Part shown: piece after piece, positions 46,926 through 54,103 of the stretch
Position numbering within the stretch: position 1 is the stretch's first letter
How the letters are laid out: each line of letters starts with the position of its first letter
NCBI GenBank assembly: GCA_030950585.1
Contig: JAUZRG010000006.1
Coordinates: forward strand, 1-54,103
Direction of reading: 5' to 3'
Origin: Mariprofundaceae bacterium
GTDB taxonomy: Bacteria > Pseudomonadota > Zetaproteobacteria > Mariprofundales > Mariprofundaceae
Length of the DNA stretch: 54,103 bases
The notes under the pieces: model-generated
Database searches by the model: none
Seen by the model: only the letters and a program-made list of their open reading frames with translations
What the model was told of the DNA's origin: nothing
Translations under genes and position numbers: made by a program

Positions 46926-48239
46926 TCACTTCCCAATACAAAAGCTAGAAAAGACATGATCCAAAATGTGTTCAACATCGCCGATACCTAGGATTTCACC
47001 CAATGCTGACCATGCTTGTCGCCATTCGAGGGCGACGAGTTCCATGACTTCTTCTCGGCCTAGGTATTGCAGACCTTGTTTGAGGTGCTGTAAGGCCGTT
47101 TCAACAAGTTGGCGATGCCGTGCATTGCACAGCAAGATGCCTTCTTCATGGGCTGGCATATCACCTAAGAGTTCGGCCAATTGATCGGCTAGTGTTTGTA
47201 AGCCTGTGCCTTGGTGAACAGAAATAGGCATAAAATGGCTGGGAATGTTGATTGTGGAATCGGTATCCACTTTGTTCATCAATGAGACATCGGCGCGTAA
47301 CGTGCTCTCCCAACTTTCAGGCCGACTCACATCTGCCATAAAGATCACCAAGTCGGCATCTTCTGCGGCATGCATGGCACGGCTCACACCTTCTTTTTCG
47401 ATAAAGTCATCGGTTTGACGAATACCAGCGGTATCCAATAAACGCAGCGGAATACCGTTGATGGAAAAATCCATTTCAAGCACATCGCGCGTTGTGCCTG
47501 CGGTGGTGCTCACAATGGCGCGTTCACGACCGCTCAAAGCATTGAATAAACTGGATTTACCCACATTGGGTGAGCCAACGATGGCCACAGTTGCACCATC
47601 AAAAAGACGTTCACCAAAATTGGATGTGCCCAACAAGGCGGTCATGGGTGTTAATAAGTTGCTCTCAACATCCTGCCTGATTTGATCAAAAAGCATGTCG
47701 GGAACTTCGTCTTCGGGGAAATCCAAACAAGCCTCTAAATGGGCAACCAAACGTGTCATTTCTTGCATTAAACTATCGAGCTTACGACCAAAATCACCTT
47801 GCAGGTGACGTTGTGCCTGACGGGCTGCACGCAAGGTGGCCGCATCAATACAAGCAGCAACCGCTTCAGCTTGGGATAAATCCATTTTATTATTGTCTAC
47901 AGCACGGCGTGTGAACTCACCGGGTAAGGCGGCTTCTGCACCAAGTTCTAATAAGCGGCTAAACAAAGCCTGCATCAACACAGGGCTGCCGTGACCTTGA
48001 AACTCGACGACTTCTTCCCCTGTGTAAGAATGTGGGGCAGGAAAATAAAGCACCAAGCCACTATCCAACAAGGCATCTTTTGCATCATAACAATTCACAT
48101 AATGGGCATAACGAGGAAGGTAATCTTTTTTAGCGTGACAAAGCTTTTGAGCCATTGCCAAAGCATCAGGGCCTGAGAGGCGTAATATTCCAATACCGCC
48201 ACGGCCTGAAGCCGTGGAAATCGCAACAATGGTAGACAT
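46926..48239 (-). CDS. mnmE: tRNA modification GTPase MnmE
   Basis: MnmE with MnmG modifies U34 of certain tRNAs. The 437-residue protein has the N-terminal folate-binding domain ([12 protein letters not shown]), G domain motifs [26 protein letters not shown] and NKVD, and the invariant C-terminal end FSSFCIGK. All intact. It overlaps yidC by 1 base. Confidence 0.96.
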
Positions 48240-49837
48240 TAAAGCGCTTGTTTAACCTTAAGAACATACCACTGCTGAATAATGGATAGAACGTTGTTCA
48301 CGACCCAATAAAGCACAAGGCCAGCTGGGAAGAATAAGAATAACACTGTAAACAATGGTGGTAAAAATTGCATCACTTTGGCTTGAATCGGATCAGTTGG
48401 TTGTGGGTTTAGTTTTTGTTGAATAAACATCGACGCACCCATCACAACTGGCAAGATAAAATAAGGATCTTGCACCGACATATCATGAATCCAACCAATG
48501 AAAGGCGCGTGACGCATTTCAATTGACATCAATAATGTTTTATATAACGAAAAGAAAACAGGAATTTGAATCAAAATAGGCAAACAACCACTCAGTGGGT
48601 TTACCTTGTTTTTCTTATATAAGGCCATGACTTCCTGACCCATTTTTTGGCGATCATCACCATAACGTTTCTTCAGGCGTTCCATTTCTGGTTGCAACTT
48701 ACGCATCCCAGCCATGGATTCGTATGATTTTTGGGTGGGGTAGAAAAATAAGATTTTAATACCGATCACCAATAAGATGATACACCAACCATAGTTGCCA
48801 ACCACATTATCATACAGCCATAACAAGCCACCATGCATGGGTTTTGCAATTGCAGCAAACCAACCAAAATCAACACTTCGCTCTAGCTCTACGCCCAGTT
48901 TTTCCATGATAGGAATAGACTTAGGTCCCATATAGTAACTGGCTTTAAAGACACCATCTTTACCATCAGCTTCTGCATCGGCAATCATACCAGCTTGGTA
49001 AGAACGGCCGTCACCTTTAAAGTAATAACGGTACTCATTGTCTGCTTGACCAATAATCGCAGCGATAAAGTAACGACTTGTGATCCCAGTCCAACCACCA
49101 ACAGCCAACAAACGTTGATCGTGGTCATCAATATCGGTGTAGTTGACCTCTGTTAAAGATTTAGCAATAAAGCCAACAGGTCCAACAAACTCTTGGAATG
49201 TTGATGCATCTTTATCGGGGTAACGCTCCATTATTTGGCGATAAAGCTGAAGTCCACTGCCTTCACCAATGCGATCGACAACATCCACAACATAACCATT
49301 GCTAGCCATGCTCAGATCACGTGTCCAAAGCCGACCATCGGGTAAGGTTGCTTGTAATGTCACAGAATGATTGGTTTTTTCAATCACTTTAAATGGAGGG
49401 GTTTCCTCTTTTATAATACCTGAAGTGATATAGAGCGAGTGGGTTTCATTCTTTTCTAAAACATCGGTATTGGGAGCATCAAGCTCTAGCGATTTTTTAT
49501 AATCATTCAGGCTTGCATGTACCAACCAGCCTTTTTCATTAATATCAAGTTCAACTTGATCATTGCTCAAAGAGGCAATAATTTGATCTGTTGCTTTCGC
49601 TTGAGAAGGTGTTGCAGATGATATGGAGGCTTGGCTTATTTCACTAGGCGCAACGCTGGTATCGTTTTCAGAACTTGGCATAGAGCTTCGTTCATCTTGT
49701 TTCACTTTAGACGAAGTCTCTAGTGTTTCCACTATTGGATTTTCAACTTTCTGTTCTGGTGGCGGAAATGCTGCGGTCCAGCCCCAAAGCACTAGCATTG
49801 AAAGAACAAATGCGATCACTAAATTACGATTATCCAT
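48239..49837 (-). CDS. yidC: Membrane protein insertase YidC
   Basis: YidC inserts proteins into the inner membrane. The 532-residue form is the long Gram-negative type: an N-terminal anchor (residues 6-20), a large periplasmic domain, then the conserved 60KD_IMP core with [20 protein letters not shown] and further membrane segments. The C-terminus carries [15 protein letters not shown]. It lies 17 bases after yidD in the conserved rpmH-rnpA-yidD-yidC-mnmE order. Confidence 0.96.
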
Positions 49838-49854
49838 GCTTTACTCCAGCAATA

Positions 49855-50067
49855 TCAAGGAAGTGGATCGTAGCCACCCTTACAAAAAGGATGACACCGA
49901 CAAATTCGGCGACAAGAAAAAAAAAGTCCACGCATAGCACCATAACGTTGCAATGCCTCTAAACTATATTCAGAGCAAGTAGGGTAAAAACGACATCTAG
50001 CAGGCAGTAACGGCGAAATGAAATAACGATAAAATCGCACACAGGCAATTAAACATCGTTTTAACAT
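49855..50067 (-). CDS. yidD: Membrane protein insertion efficiency factor YidD
   Basis: A 70-residue protein with the family core YRYFISPLLPARCRFYPTCS and CHPFCKGGYDPLP end, including the conserved cysteines. It is thought to help YidC. The ATG lies 1 base after the rnpA stop, so expression is probably coupled. Confidence 0.94.
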   Translation of the reverse strand: MLKRCLIACVRFYRYFISPLLPARCRFYPTCSEYSLEALQRYGAMRGLFFSCRRICRCHPFCKGGYDPLP

Positions 50068-50068
50068 C

Positions 50069-50410
50069 TTAAGCTTGGTACCACTGCATCAATTTATTCA
50101 TGCCCAATTCAGCATCCTTTATTGGATCCTTCATGCTTTGCCAGCCAGTTCTAGGAATAATCAAAATATCAACGGATAAATGCCGTAGTGGATGGCAGCG
50201 GTAAACCTCTCGCATGCGTCTCTTCAAGCGATTTCTTTGCACTGCATTACCATACTTTCGTGATACGGCTAATCCCAGACAGGCATGATTCAGATTGTTT
50301 TTGCCATGGACAATTAATAACTGACCAGAAACATATTTTTTACCACGCCTTAACCGCGCAAAGTCCGACTTGGACCTTAAGCGTAAGGCGGGAACATATT
50401 TCTGGTTCAG
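50069..50410 (-). CDS. rnpA: RNase P protein component, CTG start
   Basis: The basic protein partner of the RNase P RNA. The 113-residue product reads (M)NQKYVPALRLRSKSDFARL, with the RNR signature GNAVQRNRLKRRMREVYR. No ATG, GTG or TTG lies between the in-frame rpmH TAA and the conserved ALRLRSKSDFARLRRG segment; the only start-like codon is CTG at 50408-50410, 3 bases after the rpmH stop. No good ribosome binding site is seen, so reinitiation after rpmH is likely. rpmH and rnpA share one frame separated by the TAA and TTT codons. Confidence 0.9.
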   Translation of the reverse strand: MNQKYVPALRLRSKSDFARLRRGKKYVSGQLLIVHGKNNLNHACLGLAVSRKYGNAVQRNRLKRRMREVYRCHPLRHLSVDILIIPRTGWQSMKDPIKDAELGMNKLMQWYQA

Positions 50411-50413
50411 AAA

Positions 50414-50554
50414 TTAAACGACGTTACTTAAACGTTTACGGCCTTTGGCACGACGACGGTTAATGATAGCGCGACCACCACGGGTGGCCATGCGAGCACG
50501 AAAACCATGTTTGCGGGCGCGACGTATACGACTAGGGTTGTATGTAAAACTCAT
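50414..50554 (-). CDS. rpmH: 50S ribosomal protein L34
   Basis: A 46-residue, very basic protein: [18 protein letters not shown], then [25 protein letters not shown]. This matches bacterial L34 end to end. GAGGA precedes the ATG. It heads the rpmH-rnpA-yidD-yidC-mnmE operon. dnaA, usually beside rpmH, is about 36 kb away in this window. Confidence 0.96.
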
Positions 50555-50584
50555 TGTTATATCCTCAAATTCAGAAGGGAGCGC

Positions 50585-50814: not shown

Positions 50815-51549
50815 TTATTTTACTTCTGGCGCATTCAACATAGGCAAGATATGAATATCAACCCGACGGTTTTTTTTCCATGCCTTTTCATCATGGCCTT
50901 GGGATGACGGTTTAGATTCACCATGACAATGATTTTTAACATTTTTAATATTAAGCCCTGATTTAACTAGGAAAAACCCCACTTCGTTGGTGCGTAAACA
51001 CGACAACCTTTGGTTAACTTCAGCACTTCCTTGCTCATCAGCATGCCCACTAACGATCACATTGGCATGCTGTTTATCCAATAGTTTCAAGACGATACTT
51101 TCGATTTTTTGTTGTGCCATCTCAGATAATTTAAACTGATTTGATTTGAAATAAACAGCTTCACGCAGTGCTTGCTGTTTCTTCACGGACTCTTTCTTGA
51201 TTTTTATTTTAACTTTTTTAATCACCTTCGCCACTTTCAGCACAGGTATGGGTTTCACGACCTTGGGTGTGCATGACTCTTTGGCTTGCGCTAAAAAGAC
51301 ATCTGCTTTTTGCTTTAAAGCAAGTGCATCACTGCGATCCATATTACCTTCCGAAAGTTCATGGTTGGCCATCACCAAATGTGCTTCTGCCTCAGCAAAA
51401 GCCACAGGAGCACACTTGGCATAGTTCTTTTGCATACCAGCTTCAAAAGAGGCGCGTGTATCCTGCAAAAGGTAATGATCCATTTTTGGGCTAGATGTCG
51501 CGCAGGCAACACACAGCAAAGGGGTCAGCAATAAAAAAAAGAACTTCAT
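50815..51549 (-). CDS. OmpA-family outer-membrane lipoprotein
   Basis: The 244-residue protein has a signal ending LLCVAC, a lipobox-like site (non-ideal, Cys at -3), a helical DUF4398-like region (residues ~35-90, EAEAHLVMANHELSEG) and a Lys-rich linker. It ends in an OmpA peptidoglycan-binding domain (AVYFKSNQFKLSEMAQQ, VSGHADEQGSAEVNQRLS, RRVDIHIL). Role: probably anchoring the envelope or a complex to peptidoglycan. It overlaps the preceding small gene by 4 bases. Confidence 0.82.
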   Translation of the reverse strand: MKFFFLLLTPLLCVACATSSPKMDHYLLQDTRASFEAGMQKNYAKCAPVAFAEAEAHLVMANHELSEGNMDRSDALALKQKADVFLAQAKESCTPKVVKPIPVLKVAKVIKKVKIKIKKESVKKQQALREAVYFKSNQFKLSEMAQQKIESIVLKLLDKQHANVIVSGHADEQGSAEVNQRLSCLRTNEVGFFLVKSGLNIKNVKNHCHGESKPSSQGHDEKAWKKNRRVDIHILPMLNAPEVK

Positions 51550-51794
51550 ATCGTTCCACCTTGTTCTTGGCGATCATGTTGGCGTGCTAAATCCAAAAAA
51601 TAACGCGCATCTATCCAATCACCTTCACGCTGCTCATGCAATGCAAACGCCGCAAACCTCAAGCTGAGGCGAGCATGGTAATGTTCAACATGCTCATACC
51701 TTTGTATCAAAGCCTCTGTTTCTGTTTCCAGACCTGAAGCATGCACAGGCATGGAAAAACCAATGAAAACAATCAAAAAAACAATATATTTCAT
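51546..51794 (-). CDS. Small secreted protein of unknown function
   Basis: An 82-residue product with a signal peptide (MKYIVFLIVFIGFSMPVHA, cut likely after VHA) and a helical mature part rich in Glu, Arg and His (ETEALIQRYEHVEHYHARL). AGGAGA precedes the ATG by 7 bases and overlaps the TAG of the cytochrome gene. I recognise no family. Operon position suggests it works with the cytochrome or the OmpA-like lipoprotein. A start at 51878 inside the cytochrome gene has no ribosome binding site. Confidence 0.7.
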   Translation of the reverse strand: MKYIVFLIVFIGFSMPVHASGLETETEALIQRYEHVEHYHARLSLRFAAFALHEQREGDWIDARYFLDLARQHDRQEQGGTI

Positions 51795-51805
51795 AAAAGT
51801 ATCTC

Positions 51806-54103
51806 CTATAGCCTTGGTGCAACAACCAAAAATGGTGTGGCATAATTTTGCACATTTAAAATATAAGATTTTAACCATGCAGGAATGGGAACAGGTATTT
51901 GTGTTCTGGTAATCGGATCAAAGTTAAAAGCAGTTAATTGCTGATTAATGTCCAAGTTGAAGGCATAAAAAGCACCATCTTCTGCCACCACTGTGGCTCT
52001 GATGTTAAAGTATTGAGCCGCGCTATAACCGTTAACCAAGTCATCCATAAAGGTAAAGCCGCCCGTCATTGCTTTTTGCTTACCTGTGATCAAGTTAATG
52101 GCATACAACTCATCCACACCTTGATTGACAAGTTGCGTCATAAAGGTTGCATTGCGCCAGACATAAGCAGAAATATAATTGCCACCACCCATCTTCGTGC
52201 GCCACTCAGGAACACGTGTAATATCCACAACCGTTCCGACTGAACCCGCAATCGCGGCATCCAAAGTGTAGGCATCAATCAAACCAATATAAAAATCGCC
52301 ATTATTTGCTGGAAACTGTGCCAACTTAGATTCCAGCATACCTTGCAACTCACCAGGGTTACCAGTGTAAGGATCTGCGGGTCTCCACCACAACAAGTAA
52401 TTGGTTTGTTTATGACCAACCCGATCAGCATTGGGCTGATGATCCAAGATAATTCTAGCCAATAGGTTGGCATTTGTTTCATCCACCACATAAATCGTTT
52501 GGGTCATTTGATCATTAAAGAACAACCAACCCTTATCTGAACGACGATACACCGTGGTCCATGTGGCTGTATTGGCTGGAATCACACCCACCAAGGTATC
52601 GGTGCCATATTGATCAATGATGCGCAACTCATTGCTGACTTTAACCGTATAATAAGAATAGAAATTCGGCATTGCAGCTTGAGGTTTGGGCACCATATAA
52701 TCACTGTAGACTTCCACAGGAATGGTTTGAATGACGGGATTATCCAAGCCATCACTCACGATAAACTCTAAATTACGTGTGCCTCGATCACCCAAAATAG
52801 CATAGGTTTTCAAAGCTGCTTGACTAAAGCTGTAGTAATCCATTGCAATCATCGAGTCATTGATGCCAAGCACGGGACGAATCGTTAACTGAGCAAGATC
52901 ACCATCAGCATCCACCCAATCAATGGGGCCAATCCACTTGGGTGCTTCGTATTCACGCATCACAATAGGATTAATGGGTTGAACCACGGTTGGTGCTTGG
53001 TTTACCGCTGTGCCACCCGATACCCATGTATACAAATCGTTGTAATCCGCACTACCAGTCGTCAAAACTGCTGGATGTAAAACCGTAGCATCCAAGCCTG
53101 TTCCTGTGGCATAATTGAGTAATTCAGAGGCTGTGAGTTGAGCGAAATCAACACGTCTACGTGAAGAGTTCATGGTCGAACTCATGGCTGAAGTTAAATC
53201 ACTTTGCCAATTTAATGAAGAGAACTTGGTATCCGTCATATAGGGAATATGCCCTTTCATCACAAAACGGAAATCTCTATTTTTTAACTTCGTCGCATCA
53301 ATAAAAGCCTTTTTAAATGGTAAAGCAGCTGTTTCAATTGCTCGTTTTGCATCGAATGTACTGTTCTTACTGTCACTATGGCAGCTAAAGCACTGACGCA
53401 GCATCACTTGATAAGCGCGTTGTGCAGCGGGTGTATTGGTCGCTAATTTTGAAGATGTAAATTGAATACGATCACTCAAACCCACACGTGACTGTGTGCT
53501 ACTATAAGTAATAAACGCCTGTGTTTGAGCAGGTGTCCAATGCTTACTATGGTCATATTGCGCATTAATACTTTGAATGTCATTGAGGATATTCTGATCA
53601 AAGGTAGCACCATAATCGCCCACGCGCTCAAGTGTGCGGCTACTGGCATTGGGATGCGTGCCATCCGCAGGCACACTTAAATCATCATTAAGCAACAATG
53701 ACCATAAAAATGGTGCTGGATGATAACGATTGTCCATGCCCATTGGGCCAATCGAATCATTGATATAAGGCAAGACCTGACCTGTTCTGCTGGTCGTATG
53801 TGCCTGACCCAACAATGCCAACCATGAAGGAACCTGTGAATCAATACCTGTGCTATTGGCTAAGTTCAGATGACTACCGCTCTTATGACAGCTGGCACAG
53901 CTTTGGCCTGAAGTCGCACTTGCCATATTAAACAATGGCACCACATCGGTATGATAATCAGGTACACTCGCCACAGCATTATAGGTACTGATATCGGTCA
54001 CACCTGCCAAATCACCCAACATTTTAGCTTCAGATGTACTGTGATAATTTTGATATAAATTCACATTGGCTTGTGAGCGTTCTTGATGACACTGATTACA
54101 TGC
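51806..54103 (-). CDS. Multiheme c-type cytochrome, C-terminal part (5' end outside window)
   Basis: The frame is open to the right edge and no start codon belongs to it; 765 residues are visible. Three CxxCH haem sites are seen: CNQCH (54086-54100), CASCH (53885-53899) and CFSCH (53378-53392). After the haem part comes a cadherin-like section (WVDADGDLAQLTIRP, FIVSDGLDNPV), then a region of beta-rich WD/propeller-like texture (LRIIDQYGTDTLVGVI, LYAINLITGKQKAM). Such a large haem-plus-beta protein suggests a periplasmic or outer-surface electron carrier. The family is not recognised and the missing N-terminus may hold more haems. Confidence 0.75.
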   Translation of the reverse strand, partial: ACNQCHQERSQANVNLYQNYHSTSEAKMLGDLAGVTDISTYNAVASVPDYHTDVVPLFNMASATSGQSCASCHKSGSHLNLANSTGIDSQVPSWLALLGQAHTTSRTGQVLPYINDSIGPMGMDNRYHPAPFLWSLLLNDDLSVPADGTHPNASSRTLERVGDYGATFDQNILNDIQSINAQYDHSKHWTPAQTQAFITYSSTQSRVGLSDRIQFTSSKLATNTPAAQRAYQVMLRQCFSCHSDSKNSTFDAKRAIETAALPFKKAFIDATKLKNRDFRFVMKGHIPYMTDTKFSSLNWQSDLTSAMSSTMNSSRRRVDFAQLTASELLNYATGTGLDATVLHPAVLTTGSADYNDLYTWVSGGTAVNQAPTVVQPINPIVMREYEAPKWIGPIDWVDADGDLAQLTIRPVLGINDSMIAMDYYSFSQAALKTYAILGDRGTRNLEFIVSDGLDNPVIQTIPVEVYSDYMVPKPQAAMPNFYSYYTVKVSNELRIIDQYGTDTLVGVIPANTATWTTVYRRSDKGWLFFNDQMTQTIYVVDETNANLLARIILDHQPNADRVGHKQTNYLLWWRPADPYTGNPGELQGMLESKLAQFPANNGDFYIGLIDAYTLDAAIAGSVGTVVDITRVPEWRTKMGGGNYISAYVWRNATFMTQLVNQGVDELYAINLITGKQKAMTGGFTFMDDLVNGYSAAQYFNIRATVVAEDGAFYAFNLDINQQLTAFNFDPITRTQIPVPIPAWLKSYILNVQNYATPFLVVAPRL

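Follow-up and report, generated by a model that had tools for sequence, protein, structure and literature searches.

The window spans 54,103 nucleotides and is identical with contig C169 of a Mariprofundaceae genome; it carries at its right end the 3' part of a gene for a three-heme lipoprotein cytochrome. With moderate confidence, we assign this cytochrome to a divergent branch of the HZS_alpha-like (PF18582) family, the relatives of the hydrazine synthase (HZS) alpha subunit, and regard it as a redox enzyme anchored in the outer membrane and acting on a putative small substrate.

Gene and domain plan of the cytochrome

The cytochrome gene is the last gene on the right side of the contig and runs off its end. 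Its open frame encodes 765 amino acids (51809-54103, minus strand; stop codon 51806-51808), among which there are only six cysteines, all located inside three CxxCH motifs. Because the full-length relatives, which are lipoproteins with exactly three CxxCH motifs, comprise 1,318-1,518 amino acids, the 765-residue product is a fragment. A search of the same genome (G000) with the N-terminal 563 amino acids of a relative (locus L004) returned one match only, located where contig C138 ends: a piece of 450 amino acids with the lipobox NAC, 74% identical to the L004 protein and ending at its residue 446. The C169 piece begins at L004 residue 564, with about 117 amino acids missing between the two. 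Since a profile search of the genome matched just the C138 and C169 pieces, the cytochrome gene is a single-copy gene. Based on collinearity, and not on reads, we infer that both pieces are parts of this one gene, whose complete product would have roughly 1,330 amino acids. The features are as follows (minus strand throughout; residues are those of the 765-residue frame).

51806-54103, minus strand: 3' part (765 amino acids plus stop) of the three-heme, probably HZS_alpha-like, lipoprotein cytochrome (open reading frame, own-genome search, alignment)
G000:C138:3-1352, minus strand: putative 5' part of the same gene (own-genome search, alignment)
54086-54100, minus strand: heme motif 1, CNQCH (residues 2-6), at the position equivalent to heme alpha-I of HZS alpha (open reading frame, alignment, hhalign)
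53885-53899, minus strand: heme motif 2, CASCH (residues 69-73), collinear with the second CxxCH of HZS_alpha-like proteins (hhalign, E 5.6e-9)
53378-53392, minus strand: heme motif 3, CFSCH (residues 238-242) (alignment, hhalign)
52688-52990, minus strand: Ig/cadherin-like segment (about residues 372-472) (AF2 strands; Foldseek matches to C-cadherin and Lp49)
51809-52666, minus strand: C-terminal beta-propeller (residues 480-765) (AF2 pLDDT mostly 70-90; VIA Z 12-14.5 to LRP6, ROS1 and TolB propellers)

An alignment spanning two phyla revealed as invariant the lipobox cysteine, the three CxxCH motifs, and two further histidines, His750 and His753 (L004 numbering), which could be distal heme ligands. 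The residue at position +2 of the lipobox is isoleucine or valine, not aspartate, and the mature cytochrome is most likely lipid-anchored in the outer membrane. The AF2 model of the N-terminal 947 amino acids reached a mean pLDDT of only 39, and the N-terminal propeller was recognized by sequence profiles only. A fold search with the part encoded in the window returned HZS beta (5c2v_B, E 2e-5) and, equally, LRP6, TolB, NirS, and N2O reductase; specific kinship based on this search was rejected because propellers of many families matched equally well.

A previous sequence-only reading had described a large multiheme protein, possibly of the envelope or surface, with cadherin-like and propeller-like regions and without a recognized family. 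The frame is real, both types of region were borne out by the AF2 model and the fold search, and the envelope location is correct; the protein, however, has three hemes only and its gene is truncated by the contig end. Searches of Pfam, NCBIfam, and PDB gave no sequence matches of use for the whole protein, in agreement with that reading. A plain cytochrome c peroxidase, given there as an example of a known family that would overturn it, was rejected together with MauG, since the match to PF03150 covered 27 residues around a single CxxCH with E 0.022 and stayed below the cut-off.

Relationship to hydrazine synthase alpha

From eight full-length relatives we derived a profile and used it to search 398 Pseudomonadota and 296 Nitrospirota genomes. 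Beside true members, the profile matched only 11 distant proteins (E 6e-9 to 6e-17), and all 11 carry PF18582, the HZS alpha middle domain (E 8.5e-14 or better); one of them (L071) matches the HZS alpha subunit 5c2v_A with E 2e-9. TolB, a propeller protein general in Pseudomonadota, served as a specificity control and was not matched in the genomes searched. Profile-profile comparison (hhalign) of the window family with five of the 11 PF18582 proteins gave matches for the propeller block (98.8%, E 4e-17), for the block of the second CxxCH (95.9%, E 5.6e-9), and, as the weakest of the three, for the block up to the first CxxCH (57.8%, E 1e-4), all of them collinear in both groups. The cytochrome is probably a divergent HZS_alpha-like protein, therefore, because PF18582 carriers alone appeared among the distant matches and because the profile blocks are collinear.

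The N-terminal propeller and the second CxxCH, and possibly the block before the first CxxCH, are thus common to the window family and the HZS_alpha cytochromes found outside anammox bacteria, and the five Pseudomonadota members compared also look like lipoproteins. Unlike them, the window family is missed by PF18582 (no match with hmmscan), is several hundred amino acids longer, and has a small barrel gene beside it. The additions to the HZS_alpha-like plan comprise the third CxxCH, for which no collinear counterpart was found in the HZS_alpha-like proteins compared, the Ig/cadherin-like segment, and the second, C-terminal propeller. In two Pseudomonadota (L071 and L072, near 2406), the gene of the HZS_alpha-like lipoprotein shares a few bases with an overlapping ApbE-like (flavin transferase) gene.

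HzsA itself (PDB 5C2V) is composed of a six-bladed propeller followed by heme I and heme II (PMC12758564), and the same order is found in the window family. In true HZS alpha, Tyr591, located four residues after the CxxCH histidine, ligates heme alpha-I, and the histidine binds zinc (PMC12758564, PMC12607021), whereas every listed member of the window family has serine, aspartate, or asparagine and no tyrosine at this position in the alignment. Moreover, the owners of the window family are not anammox bacteria, the NCBIfam equivalog NF052339 (hydrazine synthase alpha) did not match the L004 and L006 proteins, and neither hzsB or hzsC nor a fused beta-gamma gene was found near the cytochrome in the relatives, for which flanking sequence of at most 8 kb was covered. 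In the same flanks, no CxxCH-bearing gene adjoins the cytochrome, and one di-heme protein (L006:51-722) is encoded 5.5 kb away. Hydrazine synthase as such was rejected because of the missing tyrosine, the missing beta and gamma genes, and the unmatched equivalog. The functions of the non-anammox relatives of hydrazine synthase alpha are untested (PMC12758564, PMC10732223), and our literature search found no papers on HzsA-like proteins in Thiothrix.

Distribution, neighboring genes and electron transfer

Relatives of the cytochrome are rare and scattered among Mariprofundaceae, Thiotrichales and other gammaproteobacteria, and Troglogloeales, with Thiothrix and Thiomargarita among the owners. 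The gene was found in 3 of 37 genomes of the same Zetaproteobacterial family, in 7 of 63 genomes of the order that includes Thiothrix fructosivorans, and in 1 of 296 genomes of the phylum of the Troglogloeales record; further relatives occur in gammaproteobacterial MAGs. In the tree, the window protein is placed beside another Mariprofundaceae sequence with full support and the deeper placement is weak; lateral spread of the gene is likely. The Troglogloeales gene (L007:6125-10317, G400:C48) is broken into two frames of about 304 and 1,098 amino acids, owing either to a sequencing error or to its being a pseudogene.

The recurring neighbor of the cytochrome is a gene encoding a small outer-membrane barrel, which adjoins it in 12 of the 14 loci with usable flanks and is absent beside it in L014 and L087. 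On C138, the cytochrome gene is preceded, at a distance of 75 bp, by a same-strand gene whose 256-residue product has a signal peptide and a C-terminus of the outer-membrane type (LLFRY). In Mariprofundaceae (L004, L012, L018), the barrel gene precedes the cytochrome gene. In gammaproteobacteria and Troglogloeales, a gene for a 226-266-residue protein with outer-membrane features follows the cytochrome (L005-L011; also L086 and L089); the gap, measured in the seven loci L005-L011, ranges from -14 to +11 bp. Comparison of the Mariprofundaceae and gammaproteobacterial barrels with hhalign found no detectable homology, which weakens the case for a specific barrel partnership.

Lipoprotein intramolecular transacylase (Lit) is known from Gram-positive bacteria; Thiotrichales, which are Gram-negative, encode a Lit homolog (PF07314) beside or near the cytochrome in four loci detected by family scan:

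L006:11072-11677, Lit homolog
L008:11191-11817, Lit homolog
L009:13120-13725, Lit homolog, with one gene between
L014:10761-11300, Lit homolog

A Lit-like gene, recognized by sequence resemblance, is also located near the cytochrome in L086; a search of the window's own genome found no Lit. In a genome of the Thiotrichales order (L096, G437:C99, 1911-9966), the cytochrome gene stands directly behind a cluster that by eye resembles the pilY1-fimT-pilV-pilW-pilX minor-pilin genes.

The range of owners (Mariprofundaceae, Thiothrix, Thiomargarita, and Troglogloeales among them), the lipoprotein nature of the cytochrome, and the outer-membrane barrel next door would also suit an extracellular electron-transfer cytochrome, a surface-exposed lipoprotein with Fe(II), sulfur, or a mineral as its electron donor that delivers the electrons inward with the barrel as partner. 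So would a weak match to an MtrC domain in one relative, which narrowly missed the cut-off (E 8e-7). We consider this function unlikely. Known conduits contain closely packed hemes, whereas the window family has about 445 amino acids per heme, and this spacing, together with the lack of a large porin, argues against an electron conduit. In MtoAB, PCC3, PCC4, and OmcA/MtrC, a c-type cytochrome gene likewise adjoins an outer-membrane barrel gene, but these systems have ten or more hemes compared to three, and the barrels of about 226-266 amino acids are far too small to hold the cytochrome, while the porins of PCC3 can contain as many as 42 transmembrane regions (PMC5566968). In addition, no periplasmic multiheme partner is encoded in the relatives' flanks, and most genomes of the same family lack the cytochrome. 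A porin-cytochrome conduit was rejected because of the small barrels, the wide heme spacing, and the lack of a nearby multiheme partner, and an OmcA/MtrC decaheme cytochrome because every full-length member has three CxxCH motifs and TIGR03507 scored far below its cut-off.

The 82-residue/OmpA pair and the proposed function

Two short genes follow the cytochrome gene in the window:

51546-51794, minus strand: 82-residue secreted helical protein with a signal peptide (coding part 51549-51794), first gene of a Zetaproteobacterial two-gene module (open reading frame, recurrence)
50815-51549, minus strand: 244-residue OmpA-domain (Pal/YiaD-like) peptidoglycan-binding lipoprotein (coding part 50818-51549), second gene of the module (PF00691, ATGA overlap)

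The junction between the cytochrome and the first of them reads CTA-TAG-GAGATACTTTT-ATG, with the AGGAG ribosome-binding site on the cytochrome stop codon TAG and 11 bases from stop to start, and the stop codon of the 82-residue gene overlaps the start of the OmpA gene as ATGA. No Pfam family was found in the 82-residue protein or in any of ten members (e.g., DUF4398), and DUF4398 was seen weakly in its OmpA partner. The lipoprotein resembles Pal/YiaD-type OmpA lipoproteins in its PF00691 domain (E 8.8e-13; 48.9 bits compared to a cut-off of 27.2) and its lipoprotein signal, and retains the aspartate and arginine known to bind peptidoglycan. It differs from them in scoring below the curated Pal and YiaD cut-offs, in its helical N-terminal part, and in being coupled to an 82-residue secreted partner. 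Position -3 of its lipobox (LLCVAC) departs from the usual pattern, whereas the lipoboxes of its homologs are regular. Directly behind the OmpA gene lies an mnmE-yidC-yidD-rnpA-rpmH run (46926-50560, minus strand), a cluster commonly located close to the origin in bacteria.

Among 16 Zetaproteobacterial genomes, all 19 distinct genes of the 82-residue type are followed directly by an OmpA lipoprotein gene (gap -4 to 0 bp). No c-type cytochrome frame was found within about 1.5 kb of the pair in 18 of these 19 cases, the exception being the window's own. The window's genome contains a second pair on contig C118 (L064:4066-5051), which adjoins an apparent RND-type efflux cluster. In G013, which alone among the near relatives has a cytochrome gene with its 3' end intact, the pair occupies a different contig, and no counterpart of it was found in the 428 bp behind the cytochrome. 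Since the pair recurs without the cytochrome, and G013 has both apart, it is an independent envelope module; its position beside the cytochrome is a local arrangement, and the three-gene operon is not a conserved unit. The sequence-only reading had correctly recognized the secreted protein and the ribosome-binding site overlapping the cytochrome stop codon. It also named the peptidoglycan-binding lipoprotein, which the PF00691 match confirmed, although that gene lies outside the interval 51546-54103 to which it had been assigned. Its proposal of a possible three-gene electron-transfer unit is not supported, given the separate recurrence of the pair and the small barrel as the neighbor that recurs beside the cytochrome.

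The three genes may still act as one functional unit in this particular genome, the 82-residue and OmpA proteins having been recruited as a link between peptidoglycan and both the cytochrome and the barrel. The tight spacing, the ribosome-binding site on the cytochrome stop codon, and the failure to find a terminator between the genes agree with this idea and make co-transcription possible; a different OmpA-domain protein also follows the cytochrome and barrel in Troglogloeales. That protein is, however, in L007 a barrel-OmpA fusion of another type, and, given the 18 pairs without a nearby cytochrome and the separation in G013, recruitment seems very improbable.

Least probable of all, and highly doubtful in our view, is a cytochrome whose catalytic activity has been lost and which acts instead as an adhesin, a scaffold, or a sensor based on heme, binding through its two propellers and Ig segment; the large non-heme binding domains and the minor-pilin cluster in front of the gene in one genome would fit such a role, but all three CxxCH motifs and the two further histidines are invariant across two phyla, which points to a retained redox function.

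For the HZS_alpha-like redox enzyme that we favor, the anatomy and homology described above allow a mechanism to be proposed that covers catalysis, substrate, membrane side, and the role of the barrel. The N-terminal propeller would cover heme 1, as in HZS alpha, and the small substrate would be converted there, while hemes 2 and 3 would exchange electrons with a soluble cytochrome, either as donor or as acceptor. The second propeller and the Ig segment may dock a partner, and the small barrel may help to anchor or display the lipoprotein. The 82-residue and OmpA proteins would tie the outer membrane to peptidoglycan and, by position, would at most be co-transcribed with the cytochrome.

Close gene spacing alone is thus misleading in this region, where the 82-residue/OmpA pair constitutes a separate Zetaproteobacterial envelope module. 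As a broader and decidedly speculative proposal, to which we give little probability, the HZS_alpha-like lipoprotein and the small barrel, joined in Thiotrichales by a Lit-type transacylase, may form an outer-membrane enzyme system of lithotrophs, rare and spread by lateral transfer, that carries out a new surface reaction on small nitrogen, sulfur, or oxygen species. Missed by PF18582, lipoprotein-anchored, and present in culturable Thiothrix, the branch represented in the window would offer a testable member of the HZS_alpha-like family outside anammox bacteria.
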